The notes beneath the pieces were generated by a model. The model was not told the origin of the DNA and ran no database searches. It saw nothing but the letters and a program-made list of their open reading frames with translations. The position numbers and the translations under genes are program-made. From contig JADBJK010000024.1 in the NCBI GenBank assembly GCA_014874485.1, forward strand, positions 248,001 to 312,000: DNA of 64,000 nucleotides, written 5' to 3'. The first letter of the stretch is position 1. Every line of letters begins with the position of its first letter. Below, in pieces: positions 17,126 to 32,668 of this stretch. The DNA is from Chloroflexota bacterium (GTDB lineage Bacteria; Chloroflexota; Anaerolineae; DTLA01).

Positions 17126-18532
17126 ATGTCGCTGTATCTTGAGCAAAGGCTTGAGAGTCAACTGAAGATCACGCCCCAACTCATCATCGCCAACGAGGTG
17201 CTGGCGATGTCTTCGGCTGAACTGGAGCAGGCCGTCGCTCAAGAGGTGGAGCAGAACCCAGTGCTGGAACTCATTGAGCACGAACGGTGCCCCCAGTGTG
17301 GCAACCCCCTGCGCGGGTCGCATTGCCCCTACTGCGCGGGCAGAAAGCCGCCGCGAAGCAGCGACTGGGAGCCGGAGGGGTGGAACTACCAGGACTACCG
17401 CACCCACGACTGGGATGAGGAGGACGACGACCCGATCTCCCGGGTGCCGGGCAGCACGACGCTGGCCGAGTACCTGGAATGGCAGATACGCCCTGCCCTC
17501 GCTGCGGAAGACCACCCCATCGCCCTCTACCTGATAGACAGCCTGGACGACCACGGCTACCTGACCGTCTCGGCCGGCGACGCTGCCGCCCAACTGGGCG
17601 TCCCACCGAAGCGGGTGGAGCGCGTCATCGCCGAACTGCAGAAACTGGACCCGCCCGGCATCGGCGCGAGCGGCCCCCAAGAGGCGCTCCTCATCCAACT
17701 GCGGCGGCTGCGCGAGGACGGCAAACCCCGCCCGCTCGCCGAAGCCATGATCGCCCACTGGGATCTCTTCCTCAGGCAGCAGGTTCACGCCCTGGCAAAG
17801 GCGCTGAACGTAACCGAGCGGGAAATTCGGGCCGAATACGCATTCATCCGGGCCAACCTCAACGCCAAGCCGGCGCATGCCCACTGGGCGTTGGGCGAGG
17901 CCAAGCCCGCCACCGATACCGTGTACGTCCGCCCCGACATCGCCATTCGGCGGCGGCCCGCCCCCGATACGGGTTTTGAGGTGGAGGTGCTGCCCGGCCG
18001 CTCGTTCACGTTGCGCATCTCCCCCGAATACAAACGCCTGGCCGAACAACTGGAAGGCAAGGATGACCCCTCGTGCGAACAGGCGAAAGAGCAACTCAAA
18101 GAGTACATGTCCAGGGGCAAATTGTTCATCCGTTGCGTCAACCAGCGTTGGCAAACGCTGCAGATGATAGGGGATTGGCTGGTCAACTATCAAGCCGAGT
18201 TTCTGGAAAACGGGGAGCGATCCATCAAACCGATCACGCGGGCAGAACTGGCAGAACACATCGGAGTCCACGAATCCACCGTGAGCCGGGCCATCGCCAA
18301 CAAGTACGCCCTCCTGCCGAACGGGCGCGTCATCCCCCTGGCCGACTTCTTTGACGAGTCGCTGGCGGTCAAGGACGTGCTGCTGGAAATCATACGGCAG
18401 GAGAAGCGCCCCCTGAGCGATCAGGAACTGGCGAAGCGGCTGGCCCAGCGGGGCTACCCCATCGCGCGGCGCACGGTGGCCAAGTACCGGCAGGAGTTGG
18501 GCATACTCCCTGCGCGGCTCCGGTGTCCATAG
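17126..18532 (+). CDS. rpoN: RNA polymerase sigma-54 factor with an inserted zinc ribbon
   Basis: The 468-residue protein has Region I (LEQRLESQLKITPQLIIANEVLAM, ending EQNPVLEL), the core-binding domain (ASGPQEALLIQLRRL), a helix-turn-helix (LAEHIGVHESTVSRAIANKYA) and the C-terminal RpoN box ARRTVAKYRQELGI. Between Region I and the core-binding part, where an acidic linker is normal, it carries CPQCGNPLRGSHCPYC (C55, C58, C67, C70), a zinc-ribbon pattern. Sigma-54 recognises -24/-12 promoters and needs an AAA+ activator; such an activator is encoded two genes downstream. The gene starts 20 nt after the DeoR-type gene. Confidence 0.93.
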   Translation: MSLYLEQRLESQLKITPQLIIANEVLAMSSAELEQAVAQEVEQNPVLELIEHERCPQCGNPLRGSHCPYCAGRKPPRSSDWEPEGWNYQDYRTHDWDEEDDDPISRVPGSTTLAEYLEWQIRPALAAEDHPIALYLIDSLDDHGYLTVSAGDAAAQLGVPPKRVERVIAELQKLDPPGIGASGPQEALLIQLRRLREDGKPRPLAEAMIAHWDLFLRQQVHALAKALNVTEREIRAEYAFIRANLNAKPAHAHWALGEAKPATDTVYVRPDIAIRRRPAPDTGFEVEVLPGRSFTLRISPEYKRLAEQLEGKDDPSCEQAKEQLKEYMSRGKLFIRCVNQRWQTLQMIGDWLVNYQAEFLENGERSIKPITRAELAEHIGVHESTVSRAIANKYALLPNGRVIPLADFFDESLAVKDVLLEIIRQEKRPLSDQELAKRLAQRGYPIARRTVAKYRQELGILPARLRCP

Positions 18533-18557: not shown

Positions 18558-21503
18558 ATGCGCAGATTCTGGCGGTTCGCCCTCATACTCACACTGACGC
18601 TGTTGCTCGGCGGGCTGGCCTACCAGTACGCGTGGCGGCCGATGCAGTCGCGTGCTACCCCGAGCGCCCAGGAAGCCCAGCGCGCCTGGCTCCAGCAGCA
18701 CGGGCAGATTGTCATCGCTTCCCAGCCCAACAATGCCCCCTTCTACTTCCCCTCGGAAGCGGGCATCTACGGCGGGTTTGACCAGGAACTGATCGCGGGC
18801 CTGGCGCTGACGCTGAACGCCGACATCCGCCTCATCCCGATGGCAATAGAGGATGCGCGCGCCGCCCTCTCCGTCGGCGAGATTGACGGCATCATGGGCC
18901 AGGAACCGGGGCCCGAACTCGCGCCGTTCTACGCCTTCACCCAGCCCTACCTGAGCAATGCGCAGGCCATCTTCGTAACCGCCGAGCGGCTGGACGTGCA
19001 CAGCCTGTCCGATTTGGCCGGCCGCTCCGTCGCCGTCGTCGGCAACAGCCCCGGCGCCTACCTGGTGCAGTCCAACCCCGCCATCCATGCGGTGCCGGTC
19101 CCCAGCATCCAGGACGGCCTGAGCCGACTCCTGTCGGGCGAAGTGGAAGCCTTTGTAGGCGACGAACTCTCCAGCCGCAACCTGATTCAGCGTAACAACT
19201 TGAGCGGGCTGGTCAAGGCTGTAGGCGAACCCCTCCGCCGTCGCGGGTACGCCATCGCGGTGCGCAAGAACAACACCGAACTTCTTGCCCTGCTCAACTC
19301 CGGGCTTGCAGCACTGGAGAGCAACAACGTCAAGGACAAGATCGTCCGCAAGTGGTTCGGCACGATGCCCACGCGGGCAAGCGCGATTCCCGACAACTGG
19401 GCGCTGTGGGCCGGCGGGGGCGTTCTGGCCTTTTGCCTCCTGGCTGCGGCCTCGTACTCGTGGATTCGCTCCATGAGCCGCAAGATTGACGAGCGCACCC
19501 ACAAACTGCGCGAATCCGAGCAGCGCCAGCGCGTGCTGATTGAAAACGCCAACGATGCCATCTTCTCCATCCACCCGGCCGACACGGGCATTCTGGAGGT
19601 CAACCGCAAGGCCGAGCAGTTCACCGGCTATCGGCGCGAGGCGCTCCTCCACATGCGCCTCAGCGACCTCTTCCCTGCCGATTCCCGCGAGCGCAGCGTC
19701 GGCCGCCTGCAAGAGGTCTTGCTGAACGGGTCGGGCACCTTTGACGACATGGTCTTCGTCCGCCAGGACGGCACCCGCATGGACGTGGACATCAGCGCCA
19801 GCGTCATTGAGTTTGACCGCCGCAAGGTGATCCAGATTCTGGCCCGCGACATCACCGAGCGCAAGGAGATGGAGCGCGAACTCCTGCGCCGCAACCGCAA
19901 CCTGTCCGCCCTCAACGCCGTGTCCGCCGTTGTGGGCCGCTCGCTGGAACTGGACGAGATTCTGGACGCGGCGCTGGACGTGGTGCTGGACGTCGTCGGG
20001 GCCGACATGGGCGCCATCTACCTGTTTGACGACCAGACCGGCAACCTGGTCCTGCGCGTGTACCGCGGCGAACCGCCCGTCCTCGCCGTCCAGTCGCAGG
20101 CCTTCACCGAGCAAGAGGGGTGCACCACCATCACCGCATCCAACGGCAACGTGTCCCAACTGGCGGGAGCCTGGTGGCCCCAGACGGCGCAGCCGCACCT
20201 CGGCTCCTTCGTCAGCACCCAGTTGCGGGCGAAGGACAAACTCCTGGGCGTCATGAACGTCGCAAGCCGGAAGCAGCGCTGGTTCACCCAGGAAGACGCA
20301 GACCTGCTCACAGCCGTCGCGAATCAAATCAGCGTGGCCATAGAGAACGCCATGCTCTTCACCGAACTGCGCACGGCCATCGGCGACCTGTTCGTCATCA
20401 AGCAGTTCAACGAGAACGTCCTGCAGAGCATGACCAACGGGCTCATCACGGTGGACCTGTCGGGCCGCATCACCTCCACGAACATCGCCGCCGCCAAGAT
20501 CATCGGCTACCCGCGCGAGCATCTGCTGGGGAAGCCGGTGCACCAGGTGCTTGTCTCGTCCAACGGCCTGCAGCAAATCCTGTCGGAGACCCTGCACAAG
20601 GGCACGCCGTGCTCCAACTACGAGACGGTCATCACACACCGCGACGGGCACGAGATTCCCATCGGCCTGAACACCTCCCCGCTGCGCGATAACCAGGGCG
20701 TCGTAACCGGCCTCCTCCTGGTCTTTAGCGACCTCAGCGAGATCAAGAAGATAGAGGAGGAGAAGCGCAAGTTGGATCGCCTGGCCGACCTGGGCGAGAT
20801 GGCCGCCGTCCTGGCCCACGAAATCCGCAACCCCCTGGGCTCCATCAGCGCGGGCATCCAGCACCTGGCGCGCAAGATCACCGACCCCTCGCAGCAGCGC
20901 GCCATCCAACTGATTCTGGAGGAGACCGAGCGCGTCAACCGCCTGATTGAGAATGTGCTCATGATCTCGCGCCCGCCCACGCTGGACCTGGTTCCGGCGC
21001 AGGTGTCGGACATCGTGGAGAACGTCCTGGCCCGCTGGCACGGCAAGGCCGCCGAGCGGCGCGTCCGCATCACCAAAAACTACGCGCCCGGCCTCGGCTC
21101 GTGCCTGGTGGACCCCCTGCGGCTGGATCAGGCGTTGTCCAACCTCATCAGCAACGCGCTGGACGCCATGCCCAACGGCGGCGACCTGCGCATCAGCGTC
21201 CGCAAGGTGCGCCTGATTCCCGAGCCGGCCGCAGCCATAGAAGCCGCAGGCAAGGCCCATCAGGACACGGTCATCGGGCCGGAGGAGTGGATTCGCATTG
21301 AGGTCGCCGACACGGGCGTGGGCATCCCCGCCGACAAACTGCCCAAAATCTTTGAGCCGTTCGTAACGACCAAGGCGAAAGGCACCGGTCTGGGCCTGGC
21401 CATCACACGCCGCATCGTTACCGACCACCGTGGCAACATCTCGGTGCGGAGCAAGGAAGGCGTCGGAACGGTATTCACCATTGACCTGCCGTTAGCCGCA
21501 TGA
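18558..21503 (+). CDS. Hybrid sensor histidine kinase: SBP-like sensor, PAS, GAF, PAS, HisKA, HATPase
   Basis: The 981-residue protein begins with a signal anchor (about 5-25) and an extracytoplasmic domain resembling family-3 solute-binding proteins (QIVIASQPNNAPFYF... GGFDQELIAGLA, about 48-265), the type that binds amino acids. A second membrane helix (about 277-297) leads to PAS (about 325-435), GAF (about 445-600), PAS (about 615-725), a HisKA box LAHEIRNPLG with the phospho-accepting His, and HATPase with NLISNALDA, DTGVGIP and GTGLGLAI. It has no receiver domain. It lies between rpoN and the NtrC-type gene and surely phosphorylates the latter. The ligand is unknown. Confidence 0.9.
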   Translation: MRRFWRFALILTLTLLLGGLAYQYAWRPMQSRATPSAQEAQRAWLQQHGQIVIASQPNNAPFYFPSEAGIYGGFDQELIAGLALTLNADIRLIPMAIEDARAALSVGEIDGIMGQEPGPELAPFYAFTQPYLSNAQAIFVTAERLDVHSLSDLAGRSVAVVGNSPGAYLVQSNPAIHAVPVPSIQDGLSRLLSGEVEAFVGDELSSRNLIQRNNLSGLVKAVGEPLRRRGYAIAVRKNNTELLALLNSGLAALESNNVKDKIVRKWFGTMPTRASAIPDNWALWAGGGVLAFCLLAAASYSWIRSMSRKIDERTHKLRESEQRQRVLIENANDAIFSIHPADTGILEVNRKAEQFTGYRREALLHMRLSDLFPADSRERSVGRLQEVLLNGSGTFDDMVFVRQDGTRMDVDISASVIEFDRRKVIQILARDITERKEMERELLRRNRNLSALNAVSAVVGRSLELDEILDAALDVVLDVVGADMGAIYLFDDQTGNLVLRVYRGEPPVLAVQSQAFTEQEGCTTITASNGNVSQLAGAWWPQTAQPHLGSFVSTQLRAKDKLLGVMNVASRKQRWFTQEDADLLTAVANQISVAIENAMLFTELRTAIGDLFVIKQFNENVLQSMTNGLITVDLSGRITSTNIAAAKIIGYPREHLLGKPVHQVLVSSNGLQQILSETLHKGTPCSNYETVITHRDGHEIPIGLNTSPLRDNQGVVTGLLLVFSDLSEIKKIEEEKRKLDRLADLGEMAAVLAHEIRNPLGSISAGIQHLARKITDPSQQRAIQLILEETERVNRLIENVLMISRPPTLDLVPAQVSDIVENVLARWHGKAAERRVRITKNYAPGLGSCLVDPLRLDQALSNLISNALDAMPNGGDLRISVRKVRLIPEPAAAIEAAGKAHQDTVIGPEEWIRIEVADTGVGIPADKLPKIFEPFVTTKAKGTGLGLAITRRIVTDHRGNISVRSKEGVGTVFTIDLPLAA

Positions 21504-21525: not shown

Positions 21526-22917
21526 ATGGCCGCGACGGTACTGATTATTGACGACGAACAGACGCTGAACCATTTTGTCCAGGAGGACCTGCGAGAGGCC
21601 GGATACGAAAGCCTCGGCGCGCTCACAGGCCAGGAGGGCCTGGACCTCATCCGCAGCCAGGAGGTGGACCTGGTCCTTCTGGACCAGCAACTCCCCGACA
21701 TGCACGGGCTTGACGTGCTCAAGGTCATCCGCGAGGAAGAGCCCGACATCCCGGTCATCATCGTAACCGGCCACGGCGAGATAGACTGCGCCGTGCAGGC
21801 CATGAAACTGGGCGCCTACGACTACATGAAGAAGCCCTACAACCTGGACACGCTCCTGCTGGTGGCGGCCAAGGCGCTGGAGGCATCAGCCATGCGCCGG
21901 GAAATCCGCCGCCTGCGCAGGGAAGCGCGCAACCGCTACGCCCTCACGTGGATCGTGGGCGAAACCCCGCAGATGAAAGCAATCGCGCAACTGCTCATGC
22001 GCGTGGCGCCGACCAACGCCAGCGTGCTCCTGCAGGGCGAGAGCGGCACCGGCAAGGAAGTCGTCGCCAACGCCATCCACCAGCAGAGCAACCGCGCCGA
22101 GCAAGCCTTCGTTGCCCTCAACTGCGCGGCCATCCCCGACGCCCTGCTGGAAAGCGAACTCTTCGGATACGAGGCGGGGGCATTCACGGGCGCGCACAAG
22201 CAGAAGAAAGGGCTGATTGAGGCAGCGGACGGCGGAACGCTGTTCCTGGATGAGATCAGCGGCATGAAGCCGGAGATGCAGACGAAACTCCTGCGGGTTC
22301 TGGAAACGCGCACCCTGCGGCGGGTCGGCGGCACACGCGACATCAAGGTGGACATCCGCATCATCGCCGCGTCCAATCAGGACCTGGTCAAGGCCATCCG
22401 CGAGGGCACCTTCCGCGAAGACCTGTACTACCGCCTCGGCGTCGTTACGGTGAACCTGCCCCCATTGCGCGAGCGCATCGTGGACCTGCCTCTGTTCGTG
22501 GCCGCCTTCATAGACGATTTCAACCGATCCACCGGCCGCAACATCACCGGCGTCTCCGCCGAGGCACTCAGGCTCCTCAAGGCCTATTCGTGGCCGGGCA
22601 ACATCCGCGAACTGCGCAACGTCATAGAGCGGGCCATCATCCTGTGCGACGGCGAGGAAATCCGGCCCCAGCACCTGCCCGCAGAAATCGTCGCCTGTCA
22701 GCCCGGCCCGGCAGCCGCGCCCGCCGACGCAAAGGGCGACGGAACGCCGTCCAACGGCCACGGCCTCAATCTCAAAGACGCGGTGGCCCGCCTTGAGGAA
22801 GACCTGATCCGACGGGCGCTTGCCCTGGCCGACGGCAATCAGACCCGAGCCGCCAATGCGTTGGGTATCTCCCGCGACGAGTTGCGATACCGGCTGCGCA
22901 AATACCAACTGGAGTAA
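21526..22917 (+). CDS. NtrC-family sigma-54-dependent response regulator
   Basis: The 463-residue protein has a receiver domain (IIDDEQTLNHF, phospho-Asp in LVLLDQQLPDMHG), an AAA+ domain with Walker A GESGTGKE, the sigma-54 contact loop ESELFGYEAGAFTGA, Walker B GGTLFLDEI, the Arg-finger region RRVGGTRDIKVDIRIIAAS and WPGNIRELRN. A Pro/Ala linker and a Fis-type helix-turn-helix (NQTRAANALGISRDELRYRLRKY) complete it. It activates sigma-54 promoters from upstream sites when phosphorylated by the kinase encoded 22 nt upstream. The nearest -24/-12 promoter is at 23032. Confidence 0.95.
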   Translation: MAATVLIIDDEQTLNHFVQEDLREAGYESLGALTGQEGLDLIRSQEVDLVLLDQQLPDMHGLDVLKVIREEEPDIPVIIVTGHGEIDCAVQAMKLGAYDYMKKPYNLDTLLLVAAKALEASAMRREIRRLRREARNRYALTWIVGETPQMKAIAQLLMRVAPTNASVLLQGESGTGKEVVANAIHQQSNRAEQAFVALNCAAIPDALLESELFGYEAGAFTGAHKQKKGLIEAADGGTLFLDEISGMKPEMQTKLLRVLETRTLRRVGGTRDIKVDIRIIAASNQDLVKAIREGTFREDLYYRLGVVTVNLPPLRERIVDLPLFVAAFIDDFNRSTGRNITGVSAEALRLLKAYSWPGNIRELRNVIERAIILCDGEEIRPQHLPAEIVACQPGPAAAPADAKGDGTPSNGHGLNLKDAVARLEEDLIRRALALADGNQTRAANALGISRDELRYRLRKYQLE

Positions 22918-22974
22918 CAGGAGCCAGCCCCTTCCCCTGAGCATCAGGTATCGGCAACTCGCCCTCTCTACGGT

Positions 22975-23010
22975 CTGACGGGCCATCCCCCACCCCGGAT
23001 GGCCCGTCAG
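22975..23010 (+). terminator. Perfect 14-bp hairpin after the NtrC-type gene (terminator and/or activator site)
   Basis: CTGACGGGCCATCC and GGATGGCCCGTCAG pair perfectly around an 8-base loop and are followed by GTTTCTCCC. It is well placed to end the regulatory operon. Its centre lies about 40 bp before the -24 element, so as DNA it could equally be the palindromic binding site of the activator. Confidence 0.6.
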
Positions 23011-23031
23011 GTTTCTCCCAGCATCCCCCGG

Positions 23032-23047
23032 TGGCACAGAACTTGCA
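23032..23047 (+). promoter_or_regulatory. Sigma-54 (-24/-12) promoter
   Basis: TGGCAC-N5-TTGCA matches the sigma-54 consensus. The invariant GG (23033-23034) and GC (23045-23046) are 10 bp apart, as required. The transcript would start near 23058, about 84 nt before the first gene. It lies directly after the rpoN/kinase/activator genes. Confidence 0.85.
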
Positions 23048-23141: not shown

Positions 23142-23453
23142 ATGATCACAAGCCTGCAACTCGGAATGGCGATCACTCTCTTTGTCATCGGCGTCGCTGC
23201 ATGCGCCGCCGGCCTCTGGACGATTCTAGCCCGCGACTATCAGCAGACCATGCGCACGCTGTCGGCCCAATCCGCGAAAATCGGCACCCGTGCTGCCCTG
23301 GAAGACGGCATCGCGCCCATCATTGACTCGGCCGCCCGCCTCGTGGAAGCCGTAAGCCAACTGATTCGCACTGCGGTGGGCATCGGCGTCTTCCTGTGCT
23401 GCAGCGGCGTCGTCATCTGCCTTGTCGCGTTCTGGATGATCTCCAAAATCTAG
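23142..23453 (+). CDS. Small two-helix membrane protein, first gene of the sigma-54 unit
   Basis: The 103-residue protein has membrane helices at about 7-27 and 76-100, with a hydrophilic, partly helical middle (LARDYQQTMRTLSAQSAK). Both helices contain Cys (AACAAG, LCCSGVVIC). A GGGAGCGAGG precedes the ATG. I recognise no family. Its place between the -24/-12 promoter and the giant NTPase, 12 nt from the latter, suggests it anchors or senses for the downstream proteins; this is inference. Confidence 0.65.
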   Translation: MITSLQLGMAITLFVIGVAACAAGLWTILARDYQQTMRTLSAQSAKIGTRAALEDGIAPIIDSAARLVEAVSQLIRTAVGIGVFLCCSGVVICLVAFWMISKI

Positions 23454-23465
23454 AGGGGGTGAATC

Positions 23466-26400
23466 GTGGCCGTCAAACACTCCTCCAAAAGCGCCCTCGC
23501 GCAGGGCCCCGCGAGCGACTACTTGCAGAGCCTGCTGCGCGACGAGGCGCTGGCCCATGCATGGCAATCGTTTCTGCAGCCCGTGTCGGCCATCCGCGCC
23601 GCCACCCAGGGCCAGGCCGAGGACGCCGCGAGCCTCGCCGCCCTGGGGCCGCTCACACTCGTGCTCGGAGAGCCGCTGACCGGCAAGAGCACGCTCCTGG
23701 CGTACCTGGCCTACGAGACGGCCAACCGCGGCCTCCTTGCCGCTCCCGATGAGGGACCGGGCTACCCCATCCCCATCGTCGTGGACGCCGAGGCAAGCCC
23801 GGCCGACGCCTCCCTGAACGACATCGTGGCCCAGGCGCTGGAGAAGCACAGCATCAGCGCCGATGAGGCCGCCACCCGCCAGTGGCTGGACGGCGCGACG
23901 CTCCTGTTCCTGGTGGACCAGGTGGATCGCGTAGGCGGCGCGCCCGGCCCCAAGTGGGTGCGCGAGATTTGCAGCGCCGCCCAGCCCAACGGCAGGGTCA
24001 AGGCCGTCTTCGCATCCCGCACGACCGCCTGGCCGGGGCACGCCTGGGGCCTGCCCGACATCCCCACCCTCAGCCTGGGCCGCTTGTCGGACGAGGACAT
24101 CACCGCCATCCTGTCCTCCAGACTCACGAGCGAGCAGAGCCGGCGCGTCAACCGAATCCTCCGCCGCGACAGAGTCCTGTGGGACATCGTGCATCTGCCA
24201 CTGTTCCTGTCCGTCATCCTGGAACTGCTGGAGAGCCTGACGCAGGTGCCCTGGTGGAACCTGGCGCAAATCATCCTGGCGGCACTGGCGCGCATCCTGG
24301 CCGCCAAAGGCAACGCCTCGGCCAACCCAGAGCAGGCGCTCCGCGCGCTGGGTCTGGTGACCCTTGCGGAGACCATGGAGCGCCAGGCGCAGGACGCCAT
24401 CAGCGCCCACCAGGCCAATGAAATCCTCCTGCAGAGCGCGACGGGGCAGAAGACCGCCGCGCTGTCGGCCGCCACGCAGATGGGCCTCCTGGTGGGAACC
24501 CCCGACGGCAGCGTGCGGTTCCTCCACCCGGCGATGCGCCGCTACCTGTGCGCGGTGGCCCTGCGCGACCGGCTTGGGGACTCCAAGGAACTGGCCCTCG
24601 CGCGCGAGAACCCCGCGCTCTGGGAAATGTACGTCTCGGCCCACCCCGAACCGGAGCGGCCAATTCTCAACCTGCTGCGGAACGGCGACCCCTCTGTGGC
24701 GAACCTGGCGGCGAACGCCCTGCGCCAGAACCTGCTCCCCGACCGCCTGGCGAAAGCCGTGCGCAACCTGAAGGACGCCGGCATCCCCGCCGAGACGCTC
24801 CGCAACCTCGGCGCCGCGCTGATGGAGGCCGGCGAGGCGGAGTCGGGAGCGCACCTCCTGCGTGCGCTTCTGCCGCAGGAGCCGGTATCTCCCCGGGAGG
24901 CGCACGTGGCGCTCCCCGCCGCCGACCTTGACCATCCCGAGCGCCTGCTGGACGCCGCCAGGCTCACCTACTATCTGGACAAGGGCATACTCCTGCGGCT
25001 GATGGGCGAGTCCGAACGTGCCCAGGCCGAATTGCAGCGCGCCCAGGATGAAGCCTCGGCGGTCTACGCGGTCATCTGCGCCGAGCAGGGGCTGATCCAT
25101 CTGGCCGAGGGCCGCGACGAAGAGGCCCTCTCCCAGTTCCGCCTTGCCCTGGCGCGACAGCCCAATGTGCCCGAGCATCACTACTGGGCGGGCGTGGCCC
25201 TGAACCGCTTAGGCCGCCCTGGCGAGGCCATTGAGCGCCTCCAGAAGGCCAGCGCGCTCATGCCCAACAACCCGGAAATCCTGGCCGAGTTGGGACGCGC
25301 CTATCAGCACCGCGGCTGGCTGGGCGAAGCCCTGGCTGCCTACCAGCAGGCTGCCCAACTGGCCCCGCAGGACGGGCGCTATCTCCGGCTCGCCGCCCTC
25401 GTCATGGCCGAGCAGGGCCTGCGCGAAGCCGCCGTAGAGCGCATGCAGCAGGCCATCGCCCTCCGGCCCGACCGCGCCCAGTGGTACGACGAACTCGGCA
25501 CGCTCCTGGCCGACGCAGGCGACTGGCACGGCGCGCGCGCCCGTTTCCGCGAGGCCGTGGAACTGTCCGCCAGCGACGCCGAGTACCTGCGACACCTGGC
25601 TCAGGCCGAAAGCCACCTGGGCCGCCACGCCGCCGCCATTGAATTGTACCGCCGCGCCCTGGAGTCCCGCCCAGGCCAGGCGCAGTGGATCGCCGAACTC
25701 GGCGGGCTGCTGGAGAAACAGGGCGAGTACGCCCAGGCCATCAACGCTTACCGCCAGGCGTCGGTCATTGACCCCGGCGAACCCCGCTACCGCCTGGCGA
25801 CCGCCCGCCTGTTCCAGCGCCTTGGGCAGCCCGATGACGCCATGAACGAAGTGCAGGCCATCCTGCGCGAGAACCCCAACGTCGCCGAGGCGCACCGTGC
25901 CGCCGGCGCCATTCACGAGGAGAAGGGCGACCTCACCGCCGCGCTGGAAGCCTACCGCACAGCCGCCCGCCTGATCCCGACCGACGCCAACGCCCTTGTG
26001 GATGTGGCCCGCGTGGAGACTTCCCTCGGCCTGCTGGACGACGCCCAGGCGACGCTGGACAAGGCCATTGACATCAACCCGAACGCCGGCGCTGCCTACG
26101 TCCAGTTGGGCATCCTCCTGGAGAAAGGCGACCACCTCGCCCAGGCGCGCACCGTGTACGAGAAGGCGGCGCAACTCCTACCTGGGGCCACCGAGCCGCT
26201 CTTGAGGCTCGGCGCCGTTCTGCACAAACTGGGCGACACTGCCCGCGCCGCCGCCTTGCTGTCCGAAGCCGTGGCAAGCGCCCCCAGCGACCCCCGCGCT
26301 CAGTTCCAAATCGCCGAGGTCTGCGCCGACATGGGCGACCTGGAGCGCGCCCTGGGCCACTACCGCCAGGCCAGCGCCCTTGCCCCATCGGAATGGCTCT

Positions 26401-29400
26401 ACCGCCAGCGCATCGCCGCCACTGCGGCAAAACTGGGGCGGCTGAACGAAGCGCGCGAGGAAACCCTAGCCGCGCTGAAACTGGCACCCAATCAGCCCGA
26501 ACTGCACGCGCAACTCGCCGAAATCCATGCGCTGGGCAACGACATCCCGAAGGCGGTGGAGGCGTTGCAGAAGGCCGCCACGTTGGCCCCCTCCACCCTT
26601 GCCTACCGCATCCGCCTGTCGGAGATGCAGCGGCAGGCGGGCGACCTGGCAGGGGCAAAGGCCGCGCTCTTGCAGGCCCTGCAACTTGCGCCCGACCAAG
26701 CGTCCGTGCACTACGAGATGGGCATCCTGCACCAGATGGATCGCAACTGGGCTGACGCGCTGCGCGAATTCAGCCAGGCCGCCGCGCTGGATTCCATGCA
26801 GGCCCGCTACCATGCAGCCATGGGCGACGTCCTGCTCCAGACCGGCGACCTGAAAGCCGCCAAAGCCGCTTACCAGCGTGCGCTGGAACTCTCGCCCAAC
26901 CACGCCGAAGCCCTGCTGGCCCTCGCCCGCATCCTGGCCCAGGAAGGCCAGGAGAAACTGGCCATGGGCTCCTGCAGGCGGGCCGTGGAACTCCGCCCCA
27001 ACTGGGCACCGGCGCAGACGCTCTACGGCCACCTGTGCCGCATCCAGGGGATGCACGACCAGGCCCGGCAGGCCCTTTCGGCTGCGCTGTCCGCCGACCC
27101 GAACCTAGCCGACGCCCACCACGAGATGGGCCTCCTTTACCAAGACAGGGGGCAGATGGACGCCGCCATCGCCTCTCTGCGCAGGGCTGTGGAGTTGGCC
27201 CCCGACCGCTCCGAGTACCGCCGTTCGCTGGCCCTGGCCCAGAGTGAGACCGCCGACCCCGACGCCGCCATTGCCATCCTGGAGTCGGCCATCAGTCTCA
27301 TGCCGGACGATGATGCGCTCCACGCGCAACTGGGCGCGGCCTTCGCCCGCAAGGGCTGGCTCGGCGAGGCCATCAAGCAGTACCGACGCGCGCTGGACAT
27401 CGCCCCCGACAATGCCCACTACCACAGCCGCCTCGGCGCGCTCCTGGCGCAGAACGGCCAGACGGGCGAAGCCTACGAGATGCTCCGCCGCGCAGCAGCC
27501 CTGGAACCCGGCGACCCGTCCATCCTGTGCGACCTCGGCGACCTGTACGCCGCCCAGGGCCTGGCCCAGGAAGCCGAACGCGCCTACACCCGCGCCGCCG
27601 AGGTCTGCGGCAGCGACGCGCCAACCCTCCAGCGCGTGGGCCTCTCGCTCCACAAACTGGGCCGGGCCGACGAGGCGCTGCGCCTGCTGAAGCAAGCCTC
27701 GCGGTCGGGCGACGCGGCCACCAGTTACGTCCACCGCGCCGCCGGTTCCATCCTGGCCGAGCAGGGGCGGCTGGAAGAGGCCCTGGAGGAATTGCAGGAA
27801 GCCCTGCGCCTAGATCCGGGCGATTCCGTCAACTGGGGCATGTTGGCCCGCGTGCAGTGGCAACTGGGCCAGGCGCTGGATGCCGAGCGCAGCCTGAAAA
27901 CGGCCATTGACCGCGACGGCACCAACCCCGACCACTACGCACTGCTGGGCCAAATCTACGAGAGCCAGGGGCGCATGGCCGAGGCGCTGGACGCCTACCA
28001 GAACGCCGCGACCCTTGCCCCCGACAACGCCGACACGCAGCGCGGCCTTGCGGCAGCGTTGCGCAAACAGGGCCGCACGTCCGAGGCCATCCAGGCGCTG
28101 GAGCGCGTGCTACAGGCCAAGCCCGATGACGCCGCAGCCCATGCCGAAATGGCCGAGATGCACGAGTCGGCGGGCGACGTGGAGAAGGCCATCGCCGAAT
28201 GGGAGCGCGCCGCCGGACTCAATCCCGCGAATCAGGCGTATGCCCTGGCCCTGGGCCGCACCCTGCTTCGCGCCCATCGGACGGCCAAGGCGCTGCCCGT
28301 CCTGGAGAAAGCCGTGCGGGCCGACCCCGCCCAGCCGGAAGCCCACTACCTGCTGGGCCTCGCCCATGAGGCCACCGGCAACGACGGCGAAGCCACGGCC
28401 GCCCTCAAGCGCGCGCACAAACTCGCGCCGTCGGAGCCGCGCTACATCCTGGCGCTGGCGGCCCGCATCCGCCGCGACCTGTCCAGGGCGCGCCAACAGC
28501 AAGCCCTGGGCCTCAAGCCCCATGATGTGGACGCCGATGCGCTGACCGACTGTCTGAAAGCCCTGGACCAACTGGCAGAGGCCCAGCCGTCCAATCCCGA
28601 CGTGAAGGCCGAACTGGGGTTGCTGCTTGCCGAGACCGGAAAGGCCGATGAGGCCATGGCCCTGCTCCAGCGAGCAGCCTCGCTCTCGCCCACGCATGCC
28701 CCGCTCCGCTTGGCCCTGGGCATTCTCAAGCGCCGCCTCGGCCAGCCCGCAGACGCCTACCAGGAACTCCGCGCGGCAGAGAGCATGGGCCTGGCCGGCG
28801 ACGAAGTCCACTACCACCTGGGCATGGCGCTGCTGGAGCAGAACAAGGCAGACCAAGCCGTGGCGCATCTATCCCAGGCTGTACAGGAGCGCCCTCAGGA
28901 GGCCACGTACCATCACGCGCTGAGCCAGGCGCTCCGAGCCGCCGGACGCCCCGCCGAGGCCAGGGATGCCCTGCAAACCGCCCTGAGCCTCAACGCGGAT
29001 GTGGCCCCATGGCAGGCCGAACTGGGCGAGATGCTCGTGAACGAAGCGCAGTACCAATCCGCGCTGGAATGTCTGCTGAAGGCCATCAAACTCCAGCCTG
29101 GTGCCACCGACTACTACCGTCTGGCCGCCAAAGCCTACGCGGGCATGGGACGCCATTCCGCCGCCGCCGCCCTGCTGGAGAAGGCCGTGAGCCTGGAACC
29201 GAAGGCCACCGACGACCTGGCCACCCTGGGCGAGATGTACCTCAAGGCCAAGCAACCCAAGCAGGCCCGCGTCGCCCTGCAGAAGGCCATAGAGGCCGCG
29301 CCGGAGCGACCGGAATACTACCTGACCCTTGCCGCAGTCTTGCAGGATGAGGGAAGGCCCGAAGACGCCATCAACGTGCTCAAAGAGGCCATCAATCGCA

Positions 29401-30095
29401 AGGGCGACTATGCACCCGCCCACGAGGCCCTGGGCGACCTGTACGCCGCGGCGGGCCGCTGGAATGAGGCCCTCGGCCACTTCCGCCGCGCCCTGTCGCT
29501 GGAGCCCAAGAACGCCCGCTACTGCCTGCAGGTGGGTCTGGCCTTCAAGCACCTCGGCCAGTACCACGAGGCTACCCAGTGCCTGGAAGCCGCCATCAAC
29601 CTGGCCCCAGGCGACGCCGAGCCCTATGTGGCCCTGGGCGACATCTTCCGCGAGCAGGATCGCTTTGACGAGGCCCTGCAGGCATACCAGCAGGCCATCG
29701 TCCTTGAACCCAAGCACGCCGAAGCCCATCGTCGGCTTGGCCTCCTGTGCACGCAACTGGGGTACAAGGAAAAGGCCACCGCCCATTTCCAGAAACTGGT
29801 TGACATCCTGCCCTCGGACGCCGAAGCCCAGTACCTGCTCGGCACAGCCTACGAGCAGCAGGGCCGCATTGAAGAAGCCCAGCGCGCCTACCAGCGGGCC
29901 ATCCAGATCAACGGGCAGAAGGCCGAGTACTACGTGAAGGCGGGGCTCCTGTACAAGCGCACCAAGGAGTACGGCAAGGCCGCCGAGATGTTCCGCCACG
30001 CTGTACGGCTGGAGCCTGGCAACGCCGAGGCGTACAAGCAACTGGCCACGGTGAGCGCCCTGGGATTCATCAGCAAGGAACCCAGCGGTGCATAG
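23466..30095 (+). CDS. Giant NACHT-like (STAND) NTPase with about fifty TPRs
   Basis: The 2209-residue protein starts at GTG 23466 behind GAGGGGGTG. After 60 residues comes a P-loop NTPase: Walker A GEPLTGKST (68-76), Walker B LLFLVDQVD (146-154), FASR (sensor Arg, near 182-185), HLPLFLSVILELL (proline motif, 243-255) and FLHPAMRRYLCAVAL (352-366). The last is the winged-helix motif that closes NACHT domains. From about residue 430 to the end the protein is an unbroken superhelix of TPRs (roughly 34 residues each, ending GxxEEAxxAYQ-like). No signal peptide or membrane segment is present, so it acts in the cytoplasm. NACHT-TPR proteins are NLR-like switches that oligomerise on ligand binding. 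No effector domain is fused; the next gene encodes a caspase-like protease. Confidence 0.82.
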   Translation: MAVKHSSKSALAQGPASDYLQSLLRDEALAHAWQSFLQPVSAIRAATQGQAEDAASLAALGPLTLVLGEPLTGKSTLLAYLAYETANRGLLAAPDEGPGYPIPIVVDAEASPADASLNDIVAQALEKHSISADEAATRQWLDGATLLFLVDQVDRVGGAPGPKWVREICSAAQPNGRVKAVFASRTTAWPGHAWGLPDIPTLSLGRLSDEDITAILSSRLTSEQSRRVNRILRRDRVLWDIVHLPLFLSVILELLESLTQVPWWNLAQIILAALARILAAKGNASANPEQALRALGLVTLAETMERQAQDAISAHQANEILLQSATGQKTAALSAATQMGLLVGTPDGSVRFLHPAMRRYLCAVALRDRLGDSKELALARENPALWEMYVSAHPEPERPILNLLRNGDPSVANLAANALRQNLLPDRLAKAVRNLKDAGIPAETLRNLGAALMEAGEAESGAHLLRALLPQEPVSPREAHVALPAADLDHPERLLDAARLTYYLDKGILLRLMGESERAQAELQRAQDEASAVYAVICAEQGLIHLAEGRDEEALSQFRLALARQPNVPEHHYWAGVALNRLGRPGEAIERLQKASALMPNNPEILAELGRAYQHRGWLGEALAAYQQAAQLAPQDGRYLRLAALVMAEQGLREAAVERMQQAIALRPDRAQWYDELGTLLADAGDWHGARARFREAVELSASDAEYLRHLAQAESHLGRHAAAIELYRRALESRPGQAQWIAELGGLLEKQGEYAQAINAYRQASVIDPGEPRYRLATARLFQRLGQPDDAMNEVQAILRENPNVAEAHRAAGAIHEEKGDLTAALEAYRTAARLIPTDANALVDVARVETSLGLLDDAQATLDKAIDINPNAGAAYVQLGILLEKGDHLAQARTVYEKAAQLLPGATEPLLRLGAVLHKLGDTARAAALLSEAVASAPSDPRAQFQIAEVCADMGDLERALGHYRQASALAPSEWLYRQRIAATAAKLGRLNEAREETLAALKLAPNQPELHAQLAEIHALGNDIPKAVEALQKAATLAPSTLAYRIRLSEMQRQAGDLAGAKAALLQALQLAPDQASVHYEMGILHQMDRNWADALREFSQAAALDSMQARYHAAMGDVLLQTGDLKAAKAAYQRALELSPNHAEALLALARILAQEGQEKLAMGSCRRAVELRPNWAPAQTLYGHLCRIQGMHDQARQALSAALSADPNLADAHHEMGLLYQDRGQMDAAIASLRRAVELAPDRSEYRRSLALAQSETADPDAAIAILESAISLMPDDDALHAQLGAAFARKGWLGEAIKQYRRALDIAPDNAHYHSRLGALLAQNGQTGEAYEMLRRAAALEPGDPSILCDLGDLYAAQGLAQEAERAYTRAAEVCGSDAPTLQRVGLSLHKLGRADEALRLLKQASRSGDAATSYVHRAAGSILAEQGRLEEALEELQEALRLDPGDSVNWGMLARVQWQLGQALDAERSLKTAIDRDGTNPDHYALLGQIYESQGRMAEALDAYQNAATLAPDNADTQRGLAAALRKQGRTSEAIQALERVLQAKPDDAAAHAEMAEMHESAGDVEKAIAEWERAAGLNPANQAYALALGRTLLRAHRTAKALPVLEKAVRADPAQPEAHYLLGLAHEATGNDGEATAALKRAHKLAPSEPRYILALAARIRRDLSRARQQQALGLKPHDVDADALTDCLKALDQLAEAQPSNPDVKAELGLLLAETGKADEAMALLQRAASLSPTHAPLRLALGILKRRLGQPADAYQELRAAESMGLAGDEVHYHLGMALLEQNKADQAVAHLSQAVQERPQEATYHHALSQALRAAGRPAEARDALQTALSLNADVAPWQAELGEMLVNEAQYQSALECLLKAIKLQPGATDYYRLAAKAYAGMGRHSAAAALLEKAVSLEPKATDDLATLGEMYLKAKQPKQARVALQKAIEAAPERPEYYLTLAAVLQDEGRPEDAINVLKEAINRKGDYAPAHEALGDLYAAAGRWNEALGHFRRALSLEPKNARYCLQVGLAFKHLGQYHEATQCLEAAINLAPGDAEPYVALGDIFREQDRFDEALQAYQQAIVLEPKHAEAHRRLGLLCTQLGYKEKATAHFQKLVDILPSDAEAQYLLGTAYEQQGRIEEAQRAYQRAIQINGQKAEYYVKAGLLYKRTKEYGKAAEMFRHAVRLEPGNAEAYKQLATVSALGFISKEPSGA

Positions 30096-30157
30096 CCTTT
30101 GCGGTCGGGAACTGCACCATACACGACACGGACTTTCAGACGCGCGGGAGTGGAGAC

Positions 30158-32668
30158 GTGAAAGGCAAGGAGATTTGCACAGCGGCTGAATTGGATTTGA
30201 AACAAGGCCGATTCCACGAGGCGCTGGACAAGGCCCAGGCGCTGCTGCGGCAGTACCCTGGGCACCTGCGCGGGATGTTCCTGGCGGCGGTTGCCTGGAT
30301 TCGCCTGGGCGAGCCGCAGCAGGCCCGCCTGATCCTGGACGCCGCCCTGGGACTGGATCCCGAGAACGCCGAATGCCGCCTGGCGCTGGCCGAGGCGCTG
30401 CACGCCCTGGGCGAGGCCGAGCAGTCCAACCGCCAGTTCGTCCGCGCCTTCGCCCTCTGCCCCGCCGACGCAGACCAGAAACTGGCGCTGGGCAGCCGAC
30501 TGCCCGCCGTGCTCAACCTGAAATCCGCGGGCGAGGCATCGCCCCTGGGCAAGGCGGTGCGGTTCAAACTGTCGGTCAACTGGGGCGGCGCGTTGCCCGA
30601 GTTCCAGGCCATCACCCGCTCGGACCCGTTCCTGCCCGAGGCGTGGCTGGGGCTTGCCGAGACGCTGTGGCGGCTGGAGCAGCTGGATGAGGCCATGTCC
30701 ACGTTGGAGCAAATCGCCGCCGCGTGGCCCAACTTCGTCAAGGCGGCGCTGATTCGGGGCGACATCCTGATCCGCCAGGGGCAGGCCGAGGCGGGCATGG
30801 CTGCGCTGCACGCCGCCCAGGCCCTGGACCCCAGCGGCATCGTTGCCGAGCGCACCTTCGGCTCCAACGGGCAGTACCGCCTGCTCTGGGCCGACCCATC
30901 GGACCTGGCCGTCGCAGAGCCTGTCGGTTCCGCACGACACGGCGCGAAGGCCCGCGATGAGTCGCCCGCCCCAGAATTCGCCGAAGCCGCCCCGCTGCCC
31001 GAAAACCCCACCCTGCGCGACATCCAGGTGGAGATGGCGCGGCTTGCCGATCACCTGATGGGCGCTGAAGAGCCACAACCAGCCGAGCGGCCGTCTGCGG
31101 TCTCGGCCCTTGCCATCCTCACCTGCCGAGGCCCGCTGGAAGCCAAGTTCGGCGCTGACTTCATCGCGCGCCTGGGCGAGGCCGTCCATCGTCTCATCCA
31201 GGCCATCGGCCCCGCCGACAACCGCGCCATCCACTTCGTGGCCCTGGACGACCCCGAGCAGATGGCGGGGCTGGGCGGCGTCGCGGCCCAAAATCCCACC
31301 GACGCCGCGCACGTCAAGGCGGCGGTGGACTCCCTGGCCGATGGCCTGCTGACCCAGGGCCAGGACATGCGCCACGTCCTCATCCTGGGCGGCGACGACA
31401 TCGTGCCCTTCTGCCGCGTCCCCAACCCCACCGAGGATCAGGATGAGGACATCTACACCGACGCGCCCTACGCGGCCCGCAACGGCTCCACGCTGCTGCC
31501 CACGCGCTCGGTCGGCCGCATCCCCGACTGCGACGACGCCGAAGCCTTCCTGCGCCTGATTGAGCACGCCGCGAACGCCCACGAGGGGTCGGCCCGCAAT
31601 TCGGCGGCCAAAGGGCTGAAGGCATTGGCCCGCATCTGGAAGCGGGGAGAGGACGCCGCGCCGCCCGATGGCAGTTTCGGCTACACCGCCAGCGTCTGGA
31701 AGGAAGCCTCGCGGGCCGTCTTTGAGGTCATCGGCCAGGCGCGCCACCTGCGCATGTCGCCGCCCATTTCCCGCCAGGAGTTCGCCGTCCTGGCGCAGAG
31801 CAAGCCCCGCCTGGCCTACTTCAACCTGCACGGCGTGGAAGGCGAACCCGCGTGGTACGGCCAGCGCGACCCCGACTTCGCCGCCGACTACCCGCTGTTC
31901 CCCGTCGCCCTGATGCCCGACGACATCGCAAGCGCGTGGGCCGCGGGCGCGACGGTCCTCACCGAGGCGTGCTACGGCGCCGACGTGCTGGGCCGCACGC
32001 ACAAGGATTCCATCGCGCTGCGCCTGCTGTACGAGGGCGCGCGTGCCGTCGTGGGTTCCACCCGCCTGGCCTACGGCTCGCTCACGCCGCCGCTGGCGGG
32101 CGCGGACCTGCTGGGGCGGCTCTTCTGGCTTGCCGTTACCAGCGGCATGCCCATCGGCCAGGCGCTCCAGTGGGCCAAACTCTCCTTCGCCAACGACCTG
32201 CTCAACCGCCAGGGCTACCTGGACAGCGAGGACCAGAAGACGCTCCTCACCTTCAACCTGTTCGGCGACCCCACGCTAACCGTGGAAGGCCAGCGGCCCG
32301 TCTGGGACAAACTCCCGCAGGCGGCGATGGTCCGCAAGTCGCTGGCCGTCTGCTGCCAACACGGCGCGCGGCAGGTTGCCACCGACGTGCCCAACGACCT
32401 GGTCCAGCAGGTGCAATTGCAAATCAGCCACCGCCTGCCCTGGATCACGCCCAAGCAGGTGCGCGTTACGCATCAGGTGCTGTGCAACGGGCAGTGCACG
32501 GGCAGTTGCCATTCAGGCGCGGCGACCCACAGCGCGGCCACCGTCGCCAACCGCTACGTGTTCACCGTCAGCGGCGAATCCGAGGGCAACGGGCTGCGCG
32601 GGCCGTTTGTCGCAAAGATCACCGTTGACCACAAGGGCACCATCCTCAAGATGGCCGTGTCCAAGTAG
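30158..32668 (+). CDS. TPR protein with a caspase-like (C25/clan CD) protease domain
   Basis: The 836-residue protein starts at GTG 30158 after GGAG. Residues 8-225 contain TPR-like repeats and resemble those of the giant NTPase. A linker follows, then a protease domain of the gingipain type: LILGGDDIVPF (408-418), YTDAPYA, LLPTRSVGRIPD (446-457), FNLHG with catalytic H558, TEACYGAD with catalytic C605, and NLFGDPTLTV (700-709). These are the landmarks of peptidase C25. A C-terminal domain of about 125 residues with several Cys follows. C25 enzymes are normally exported; this one has no signal peptide, so it is cytoplasmic. The shared TPRs suggest docking to the NTPase. Confidence 0.82.
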   Translation: MKGKEICTAAELDLKQGRFHEALDKAQALLRQYPGHLRGMFLAAVAWIRLGEPQQARLILDAALGLDPENAECRLALAEALHALGEAEQSNRQFVRAFALCPADADQKLALGSRLPAVLNLKSAGEASPLGKAVRFKLSVNWGGALPEFQAITRSDPFLPEAWLGLAETLWRLEQLDEAMSTLEQIAAAWPNFVKAALIRGDILIRQGQAEAGMAALHAAQALDPSGIVAERTFGSNGQYRLLWADPSDLAVAEPVGSARHGAKARDESPAPEFAEAAPLPENPTLRDIQVEMARLADHLMGAEEPQPAERPSAVSALAILTCRGPLEAKFGADFIARLGEAVHRLIQAIGPADNRAIHFVALDDPEQMAGLGGVAAQNPTDAAHVKAAVDSLADGLLTQGQDMRHVLILGGDDIVPFCRVPNPTEDQDEDIYTDAPYAARNGSTLLPTRSVGRIPDCDDAEAFLRLIEHAANAHEGSARNSAAKGLKALARIWKRGEDAAPPDGSFGYTASVWKEASRAVFEVIGQARHLRMSPPISRQEFAVLAQSKPRLAYFNLHGVEGEPAWYGQRDPDFAADYPLFPVALMPDDIASAWAAGATVLTEACYGADVLGRTHKDSIALRLLYEGARAVVGSTRLAYGSLTPPLAGADLLGRLFWLAVTSGMPIGQALQWAKLSFANDLLNRQGYLDSEDQKTLLTFNLFGDPTLTVEGQRPVWDKLPQAAMVRKSLAVCCQHGARQVATDVPNDLVQQVQLQISHRLPWITPKQVRVTHQVLCNGQCTGSCHSGAATHSAATVANRYVFTVSGESEGNGLRGPFVAKITVDHKGTILKMAVSK

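Follow-up and report, generated by a model that had tools for sequence, protein, structure and literature searches.

The sigma-54 factor (RpoN) encoded in the stretch of 64,000 nt of Chloroflexota DNA analysed here (the window) carries four cysteines in the arrangement of a zinc ribbon directly behind Region I, in place of the acidic segment (~25 residues) with which Region II otherwise opens. That such a ribbon-bearing sigma-54 lineage exists, and that its Cys4 site is real, is beyond reasonable doubt, and the ribbon very probably binds a metal (probably zinc) in a structural capacity. Our main reading, to which as a whole we assign a probability of about 0.45, is that a deep, separate lineage of sigma-54 has a structural Zn(Cys)4 ribbon instead of the acidic start of Region II, and that this ribbon would cap the pull exerted by the activator.

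The rpoN Gene of the Window

The features of the rpoN gene and its surroundings are collected in Table 1. The gene is the sole copy detected in its own genome, where a second copy was not found. Its product exceeds the cut-off of the NCBIfam equivalog TIGR02395 (300.5 bits; cut-off, 277.35), and the activator-interacting (AID), core-binding (CBD) and DNA-binding (DBD) domains follow in the expected order, each above its Pfam cut-off, with the DBD match covering residues 323-465. Positions A447 to R455 of the DBD are mostly near-invariant, and the sequence matches of the protein in the PDB are all sigma-54 (best, 3e-40).

The ribbon begins six residues past the motif that ends Region I. The codons for C55, C58, C67 and C70 begin at positions 17288, 17297, 17324 and 17333, by which the span of 17288-17335 given in the original prediction is exact. 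Immediately ahead of the CBD, an acidic stretch is conserved (D102 in 93% and P103 in 87% of 123 de-replicated relatives); we infer that it is the positional equivalent of the Region II finger of E. coli, the position of which was taken from PMC10786286 (available in part).

Table 1. Features of the window discussed in the text, with coordinates counted from its first nucleotide.
Feature	Position	Strand	Basis
rpoN, sigma-54, 468 aa, ribbon-bearing lineage	17126..18532	+	ORF, Pfam, TIGR02395
Region I / activator-interacting domain (AID), residues 5-49	17138..17272	+	PF00309, 45.8 bits (cut-off 23.8)
Cys4 ribbon C55-P-Q-C58-x8-C67-P-Y-C70	17288..17335	+	Codons, conservation
Variable Region II segment with predicted disorder, residues 71-97	17336..17416	+	Low conservation, low pLDDT
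Acidic DEEDDDP stretch ahead of CBD, residues 98-108	17417..17449	+	Conservation
Core-binding domain (CBD), residues 109-302	17450..18031	+	PF04963, 128.2 bits (above cut-off)
DNA-binding domain (DBD) with ARRTVAKYR stretch	18092..18520	+	PF04552, 116.2 bits
Sensor histidine kinase (SBP_bac_3, PAS, GAF, HisKA, HATPase_c)	18558..21503	+	Pfam
NtrC-type activator (receiver, Sigma54_activat with GAFTGA, Fis-type HTH)	21526..22917	+	Pfam
15-bp hairpin with short T-run, probable terminator past activator gene	22974..23011	+	-30.6 kcal/mol
Predicted -24/-12 promoter, TGGCACAGAACTTGCA	23032..23047	+	Exact match, conserved
Small membrane-like protein, first gene past promoter, no Pfam match	23142..23453	+	
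TPR-repeat protein, 2209 aa, second gene past promoter	23466..30095	+	

Conservation of the Four Cysteines

Sigma-54 loci were drawn from the class of the window, where 35 of 249 genomes matched the protein, and from its phylum, where 131 of 400 genomes matched PF04552. The 140 loci read from these searches are a part of the matches, picked for spread over families and genera with their N-termini unseen. Region I could be located by profile in 133 of them (the other seven being without a located Region I), and behind it four Cys were present in 126 loci, three in one and none in six; the presence of the ribbon is thus nearly all-or-none in the phylum. For the conservation count, two canonical proteins (L030 and L031; see below) and the loci in which Region I was not located were left out, and the removal of near-copies then brought 131 proteins down to 123.

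Over these 123 de-replicated relatives, C55 and C58 are kept in 97% each, C67 in 95% and C70 in 94%. The four Cys are also the top four of the 468 columns by information, a measure that favours rare residues such as Cys, while the plain percentages are independent of that bias. Mean information amounts to 2.41 over residues 55-70, 0.97 over residues 71-108 and 2.50 over the DBD. When the window is compared with the two relatives nearest to it, codons 58 and 67 show silent changes only. The Cys4 site predicted between Region I and the CBD therefore stands, and the check on its conservation in close relatives, with the counts given above, did not refute it.

The inner spacing of the ribbon is x8 in 218 of 266 ribbons, and 110 of these 266 stem from the pattern scan described below and are x8 by construction; other spacings, from x5 to x11, occur in 36 and other knuckles (e.g., CxC) in 12. 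This tolerance fits a metal site, for which four ligands are needed and not one particular sequence. The loci from the pattern scan likewise carry four Cys by construction, and the invariance of Cys amongst them, being circular, was not used as evidence. In one sigma-54 (L026), the ribbon motif is duplicated in tandem, giving eight Cys.

The Cys pattern of the window RpoN is far beyond chance. It is hardly credible that these residues have come together fortuitously, or persist as a relic devoid of metal: ribbonless members of the family do exist, and the site is known from sequence and models, but each Cys is kept in 94-97% of the relatives next to a variable linker, the Cys codons change silently and loss is near all-or-none.

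A Replacement for the Acidic Start of Region II

From Region I to the CBD, the linker measures 63.1 ± 8.0 aa in ribbon-bearing Chloroflexota, as compared to 57.9 ± 11.4 aa in Bacillota, 76.4 ± 16.9 aa in Acidobacteriota and 67 aa in E. coli. Its length is unchanged between ribbon-bearing and canonical sigma-54s, which implies a replacement; the original prediction, by which the ribbon was inserted, was wrong in this respect and the insertion was rejected. Over the 25 residues past Region I, the charge is -0.6 in ribbon-bearing Chloroflexota, as against -8 for E. coli, -7.6 for Bacillota, -7.1 for Acidobacteriota and -6.7 for Planctomycetota. Where the ribbon stands, canonical RpoN is acidic and variable, in agreement with the original prediction. 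The first ~25 residues of Region II in the window RpoN are neutral and the acidic start is missing, while the rest of the linker behind the ribbon stays acidic (-7.1 on average in ribbon-bearing proteins). An acidic start of Region II is a usual and not a defining trait of sigma-54, Region II being variable (PMC12316311, in part).

Region II is poorly conserved in general. It begins at residue 57 in E. coli, where RII.1, the first part of it, sits in the downstream DNA channel of the holoenzyme, the place taken by region 1.1 in the case of sigma-70 (PMC7057263, in part). A ribbon that replaces the first part of Region II could be a folded counterpart of RII.1, that is, a plug of the downstream channel ejected when DNA is loaded, like sigma-70 region 1.1. 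We consider this unlikely, since an acidic DNA mimic would be expected to differ in charge from the ribbon itself, which is neutral or slightly basic (mean of +0.4 for Chloroflexota; +1.8 for the four proteins of Actinomycetota), and the density of Region II is weak or absent in later complexes (PMC7057263 and PMC10786286, both in part). About the first 110 residues of sigma-54 are not resolved in the open and initial transcribing complexes (PMC10786286, in part).

A Separate Lineage with Occasional Losses

Trees were built on the core-binding and DNA-binding parts only. On a quick tree of 109 rows, the ribbon label changes 8 times, compared to 32.5 times in shuffles. A careful tree was made with 54 of these 109 rows, long or truncated rows (L028, L106, L112, L113, L129, L133, L274, L282, L309 and L341) being left out. 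In the careful tree, 19 canonical proteins, including two from the phylum of the window, constitute one side of a branch with a support of 100/99, present in 200 of 200 bootstrap trees, and all the ribbon-bearing rows lie on the opposite side. The tree is unrooted, and it fits a ribbon gained in one lineage as well as a ribbon lost in the canonical line.

Two genomes of the phylum of the window (L030 and L031) carry a canonical sigma-54 that groups with the E. coli protein, either by transfer or by contamination. On the ribbon side of the tree, L027, L127, L135, L137 and several proteins of Armatimonadota are ribbonless, most simply as a result of losses. Their nesting within the ribbon side counts against our main reading, as it implies that a sigma-54 can lose the site and presumably remain functional; GAFTGA activators are encoded on the contigs of L027, L135 and L137. 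Within its lineage, the ribbon is rarely lost.

Distribution across Bacteria

Other phyla were entered via named loci, and for each search the best 30 matches to the DNA-binding domain were examined together with the centre locus. Four Cys after Region I were found in 22 of 31 loci in the phylum of an Abditibacteriaceae genome, which we take to be Armatimonadota in the GTDB sense, and in all three loci of another phylum (three genomes). They were found in none of the loci examined from Bacillota (0/32), Acidobacteriota (0/31) and Planctomycetota (0/31; 0/94 together), nor in one Verrucomicrobiota and two Bacteroidota genomes (0/3) or in E. coli (0/1).

A pattern scan over 84,980 species genomes returned at least 119 matches; among the matches listed, 110 are sigma-54 with the ribbon directly after Region I, while the other nine of the 119 have no sigma-54 ORF and were taken as chance. 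By NCBI names, the 110 among the matches listed comprise 77 Chloroflexota, 14 Thermomicrobiota, four Actinomycetota, three Armatimonadota, three Abditibacteriota, five without a phylum and four labelled Proteobacteria. For three of the latter four contigs, the label looks wrong, and the phylum of the window looks to be the right one (G419, G251). Cultured bacteria with the ribbon include Thermosporothrix hazakensis (L240) and Ktedonosporobacter rubrisoli (L208).

In Actinomycetota, four of 12 loci have four Cys after Region I, all four reached via the ribbon pattern: Arthrobacter Leaf137 (L165), Arthrobacter P2b (L211), Nocardioides zg-1308 (L194) and Rhizocola hellebori (L253). An even draw of 296 genomes of this phylum included 10 with any PF04552 match (one too weak for an ORF), and the ribbon is absent from all eight non-centre sigma-54 loci of that draw. 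With a whole-genome search, a strong activator match was found 8-10 kb from the ribbon sigma-54, on the same contig, in all four ribbon-bearing Actinomycetota. The GAFTGA motif was seen in the activators of three of them, the sequence of the Rhizocola activator lying outside that reading. The 20 ORFs beside these Actinomycetota genes gave three Pfam matches only (aminotransferase, aldehyde dehydrogenase and glutamine synthetase). The ribbon-type sigma-54s and their same-contig activators contrast with the view of a 2025 survey that Actinomycetota are effectively without functional RpoN (PMC12316311, in part).

Two further observations concern sigma-54 in the loci surveyed. Three sigma-54-like ORFs of ~370 aa (L129, L132 and L133), in genomes of 1.3-1.6 Mb from the phylum of the window, have no standard Region I that could be located. 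In two other genomes (G134 and G168), sigma-54 is encoded two or three times, and every copy has an activator gene no more than ~5 kb away, as if they formed dedicated pairs.

Structure Models

An AlphaFold2 model of the full protein (58 sequences) has a mean pLDDT of 87.9, with means of 82 over residues 51-60 and 83 over residues 61-70, while residues 74-109 lie below 50; residues 51-70 are modelled between confident helices and the disordered linker. In a model of residues 10-76, pLDDT is ~86 over the ribbon, the mean pLDDT of the five models ranging between 63.8 and 84.3. Among solved structures, sigma-54 chains give the best alignments to the full model (Z up to 23.0, with an rmsd of 11.4 over 380 residues). 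For the small ribbon model, Foldseek returned nothing better than E 0.9 and a second fold comparison nothing at Z >= 2; the rows for rubredoxin, Nop10 and the ZRANB2 finger were weak and all non-significant, and the assignment of a known solved fold to the ribbon piece was rejected.

The window RpoN has the two-knuckle, four-Cys arrangement of a zinc ribbon, and the ribbon piece reaches the cut-off of no curated zinc-ribbon profile in Pfam. The nearest profile is the double zinc ribbon DZR (20.7 bits; cut-off, 27.3); Zn_ribbon_TFIIB gave 9.8 bits (E 0.68; cut-off, 22) with a piece that is very short.

The full-length model shows a strand at residues 47-51, adjoining the ribbon. This is compatible with a module for docking or stability, in which the ribbon would bind the core enzyme, the activator or the long helix of sigma-54, or would block proteolysis, as a counterpart in cis of the Helicobacter pylori protein FlgZ, the zinc ribbon of which is required to protect RpoN from turnover (PMC3372290, in part). 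We think such a module improbable. The strand is missing from the N-terminal model, and amongst the 400 genomes of the phylum, PF02591 (the FlgZ family) is neither avoided nor favoured with sigma-54 (68/127 genomes with sigma-54 vs. 152/273 others; p = 0.75), where sigma-54 genomes were those exceeding the PF04552 cut-off (127, from 131 that had a match of any strength) and PF02591 was counted at E 0.001 (220 of 400 genomes, 195 of them over cut-off). On account of this independence, the ribbon as a substitute in cis for FlgZ was rejected; moreover, the genome of the window has one PF02591 gene itself.

Activator, Promoter and Neighbouring Genes

The NtrC-type activator encoded downstream of rpoN accounts for the single strong match to PF00158 that the genome contains. 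The hairpin past its gene (z -4.8) was equalled in none of 200 shuffles. The site that follows, TGGCACAGAACTTGCA, is the only exact -24/-12 match in the 64 kb (expected number, 0.12; as many were obtained in 12 of 100 shuffles), while at two mismatches the -24/-12 matches in the window show no excess (27 vs. 34.8). It is identical in the two nearest relatives, inside a block of conserved bases, and similar sites occur in five of seven neighbourhoods of 8-13 kb, both nearest relatives included (0.33 expected per 8 kb). Judged from its sequence, the sigma-54 system of the window looks functional: a GAFTGA activator is encoded close by, and behind it stands a predicted -24/-12 promoter, exact and shared with two relatives. 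The span 23466-32668 encodes the large TPR protein and, behind it, a TPR protein with a match to Peptidase_C25 (caspase-like).

The neighbouring genes also bear on the proposal in the original prediction that the ribbon senses redox or metal state, in which case loss or oxidation of the site would alter the grip of Region I and transcription would answer to zinc or oxidants. The sole point in its favour is the all-Cys site at a regulatory junction. The one target operon predicted in the window, which encodes the small membrane-like protein and the large TPR protein, has no evident link to metal or redox; furthermore, the same site is kept across very diverse genomes and changes in spacing are tolerated, as for a structural site. 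The claim of sensing is not supported by these data, and we regard it as very unlikely.

A Possible Role of the Ribbon

The ring of the activator encloses the N-terminus of sigma-54, pulls and unfolds helix 1 of Region I, while the number of residues pulled and the end of the reaction are unsettled in the literature (PMC9770992 and PMC12054792, both in part). From its position alone, it is plausible that the ribbon affects how Region I keeps the polymerase closed. In the mechanism that we propose, the Zn(Cys)4 site would staple the junction of Regions I and II, which would be the point up to which an AAA+ activator could pull. A metal-stapled knot directly behind Region I would form a rigid cap that keeps the pull within Region I and transmits its force to the remaining sigma-54, whereas in the canonical proteins a floppy acidic chain follows. 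This stop in particular is put forward tentatively, as possible rather than probable. Against it, the unfolding of ~26 residues is considered sufficient in E. coli (PMC12054792, in part), which may make a stop at residue 55 superfluous, and canonical sigma-54s work without a ribbon.

In a more far-reaching version, which we judge unlikely, there would be two deep mechanical designs of sigma-54, the zinc-locked knot being an end-stop that sets the extent of AAA+ unfolding. If that were true, removal or oxidation of the metal would switch the stop off, and the succession of ribbon, linker and cleft-entering finger would resemble the layout of TFIIB.

The lineage described here offers a natural probe of the sigma-54 mechanism. 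The canonical sigma-54s behind the known mechanism have a floppy and poorly resolved start of Region II, and proteins with a fixed Cys4 knot should be easier to see at that point. Cys variants would directly probe whether the junction of Regions I and II limits the pull of the activator. Moreover, CPxCG...CPxC after NPALE provides a marker, recognisable at one glance, of a deep split in the sigma-54 family.

Comparison with Known Systems

Among the papers listed in searches of the open-licence PMC literature, none appears to describe a ribbon or other zinc site within RpoN. The word "zinc" is absent from a comparative paper of 2011 (PMC3162934) and occurs twice in the 2025 regulon survey (PMC12316311), in one passage for a response regulator. 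The nearest published link found is FlgZ, a zinc-ribbon protein acting in trans (PMC3372290, in part). The conserved knot points to a metal-stapled variant of sigma-54 of which we found no description in that literature.

Amongst zinc ribbons, the nearest profiles (DZR, PF12773, and Zn_ribbon_3, PF13248) have CPxCG...CPxC knuckles as in the sigma-54 ribbon, which differs from both in that it scores below every curated cut-off and is housed in a sigma factor. In TFIIB, the N-terminal zinc ribbon precedes a finger that runs into the polymerase cleft; the likeness to ribbon-bearing sigma-54 is in the order of parts only, the match to the Zn_ribbon_TFIIB profile being negligible. FlgZ, of the DUF164 family (PF02591), shares with our proteins a zinc ribbon tied to RpoN function, but it is a separate protein with CXXC-x18-26-CXXC (PMC3372290, in part), whereas the sigma-54 ribbon has x8 and is located inside RpoN. 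The canonical sigma-54s of E. coli and Klebsiella have the same Region I, CBD and DBD, the same GAFTGA activator and the same -24/-12 promoter; they differ in that their Region II starts acidic and lacks the four Cys, and they stand on the opposite side of the branch that divides the tree.
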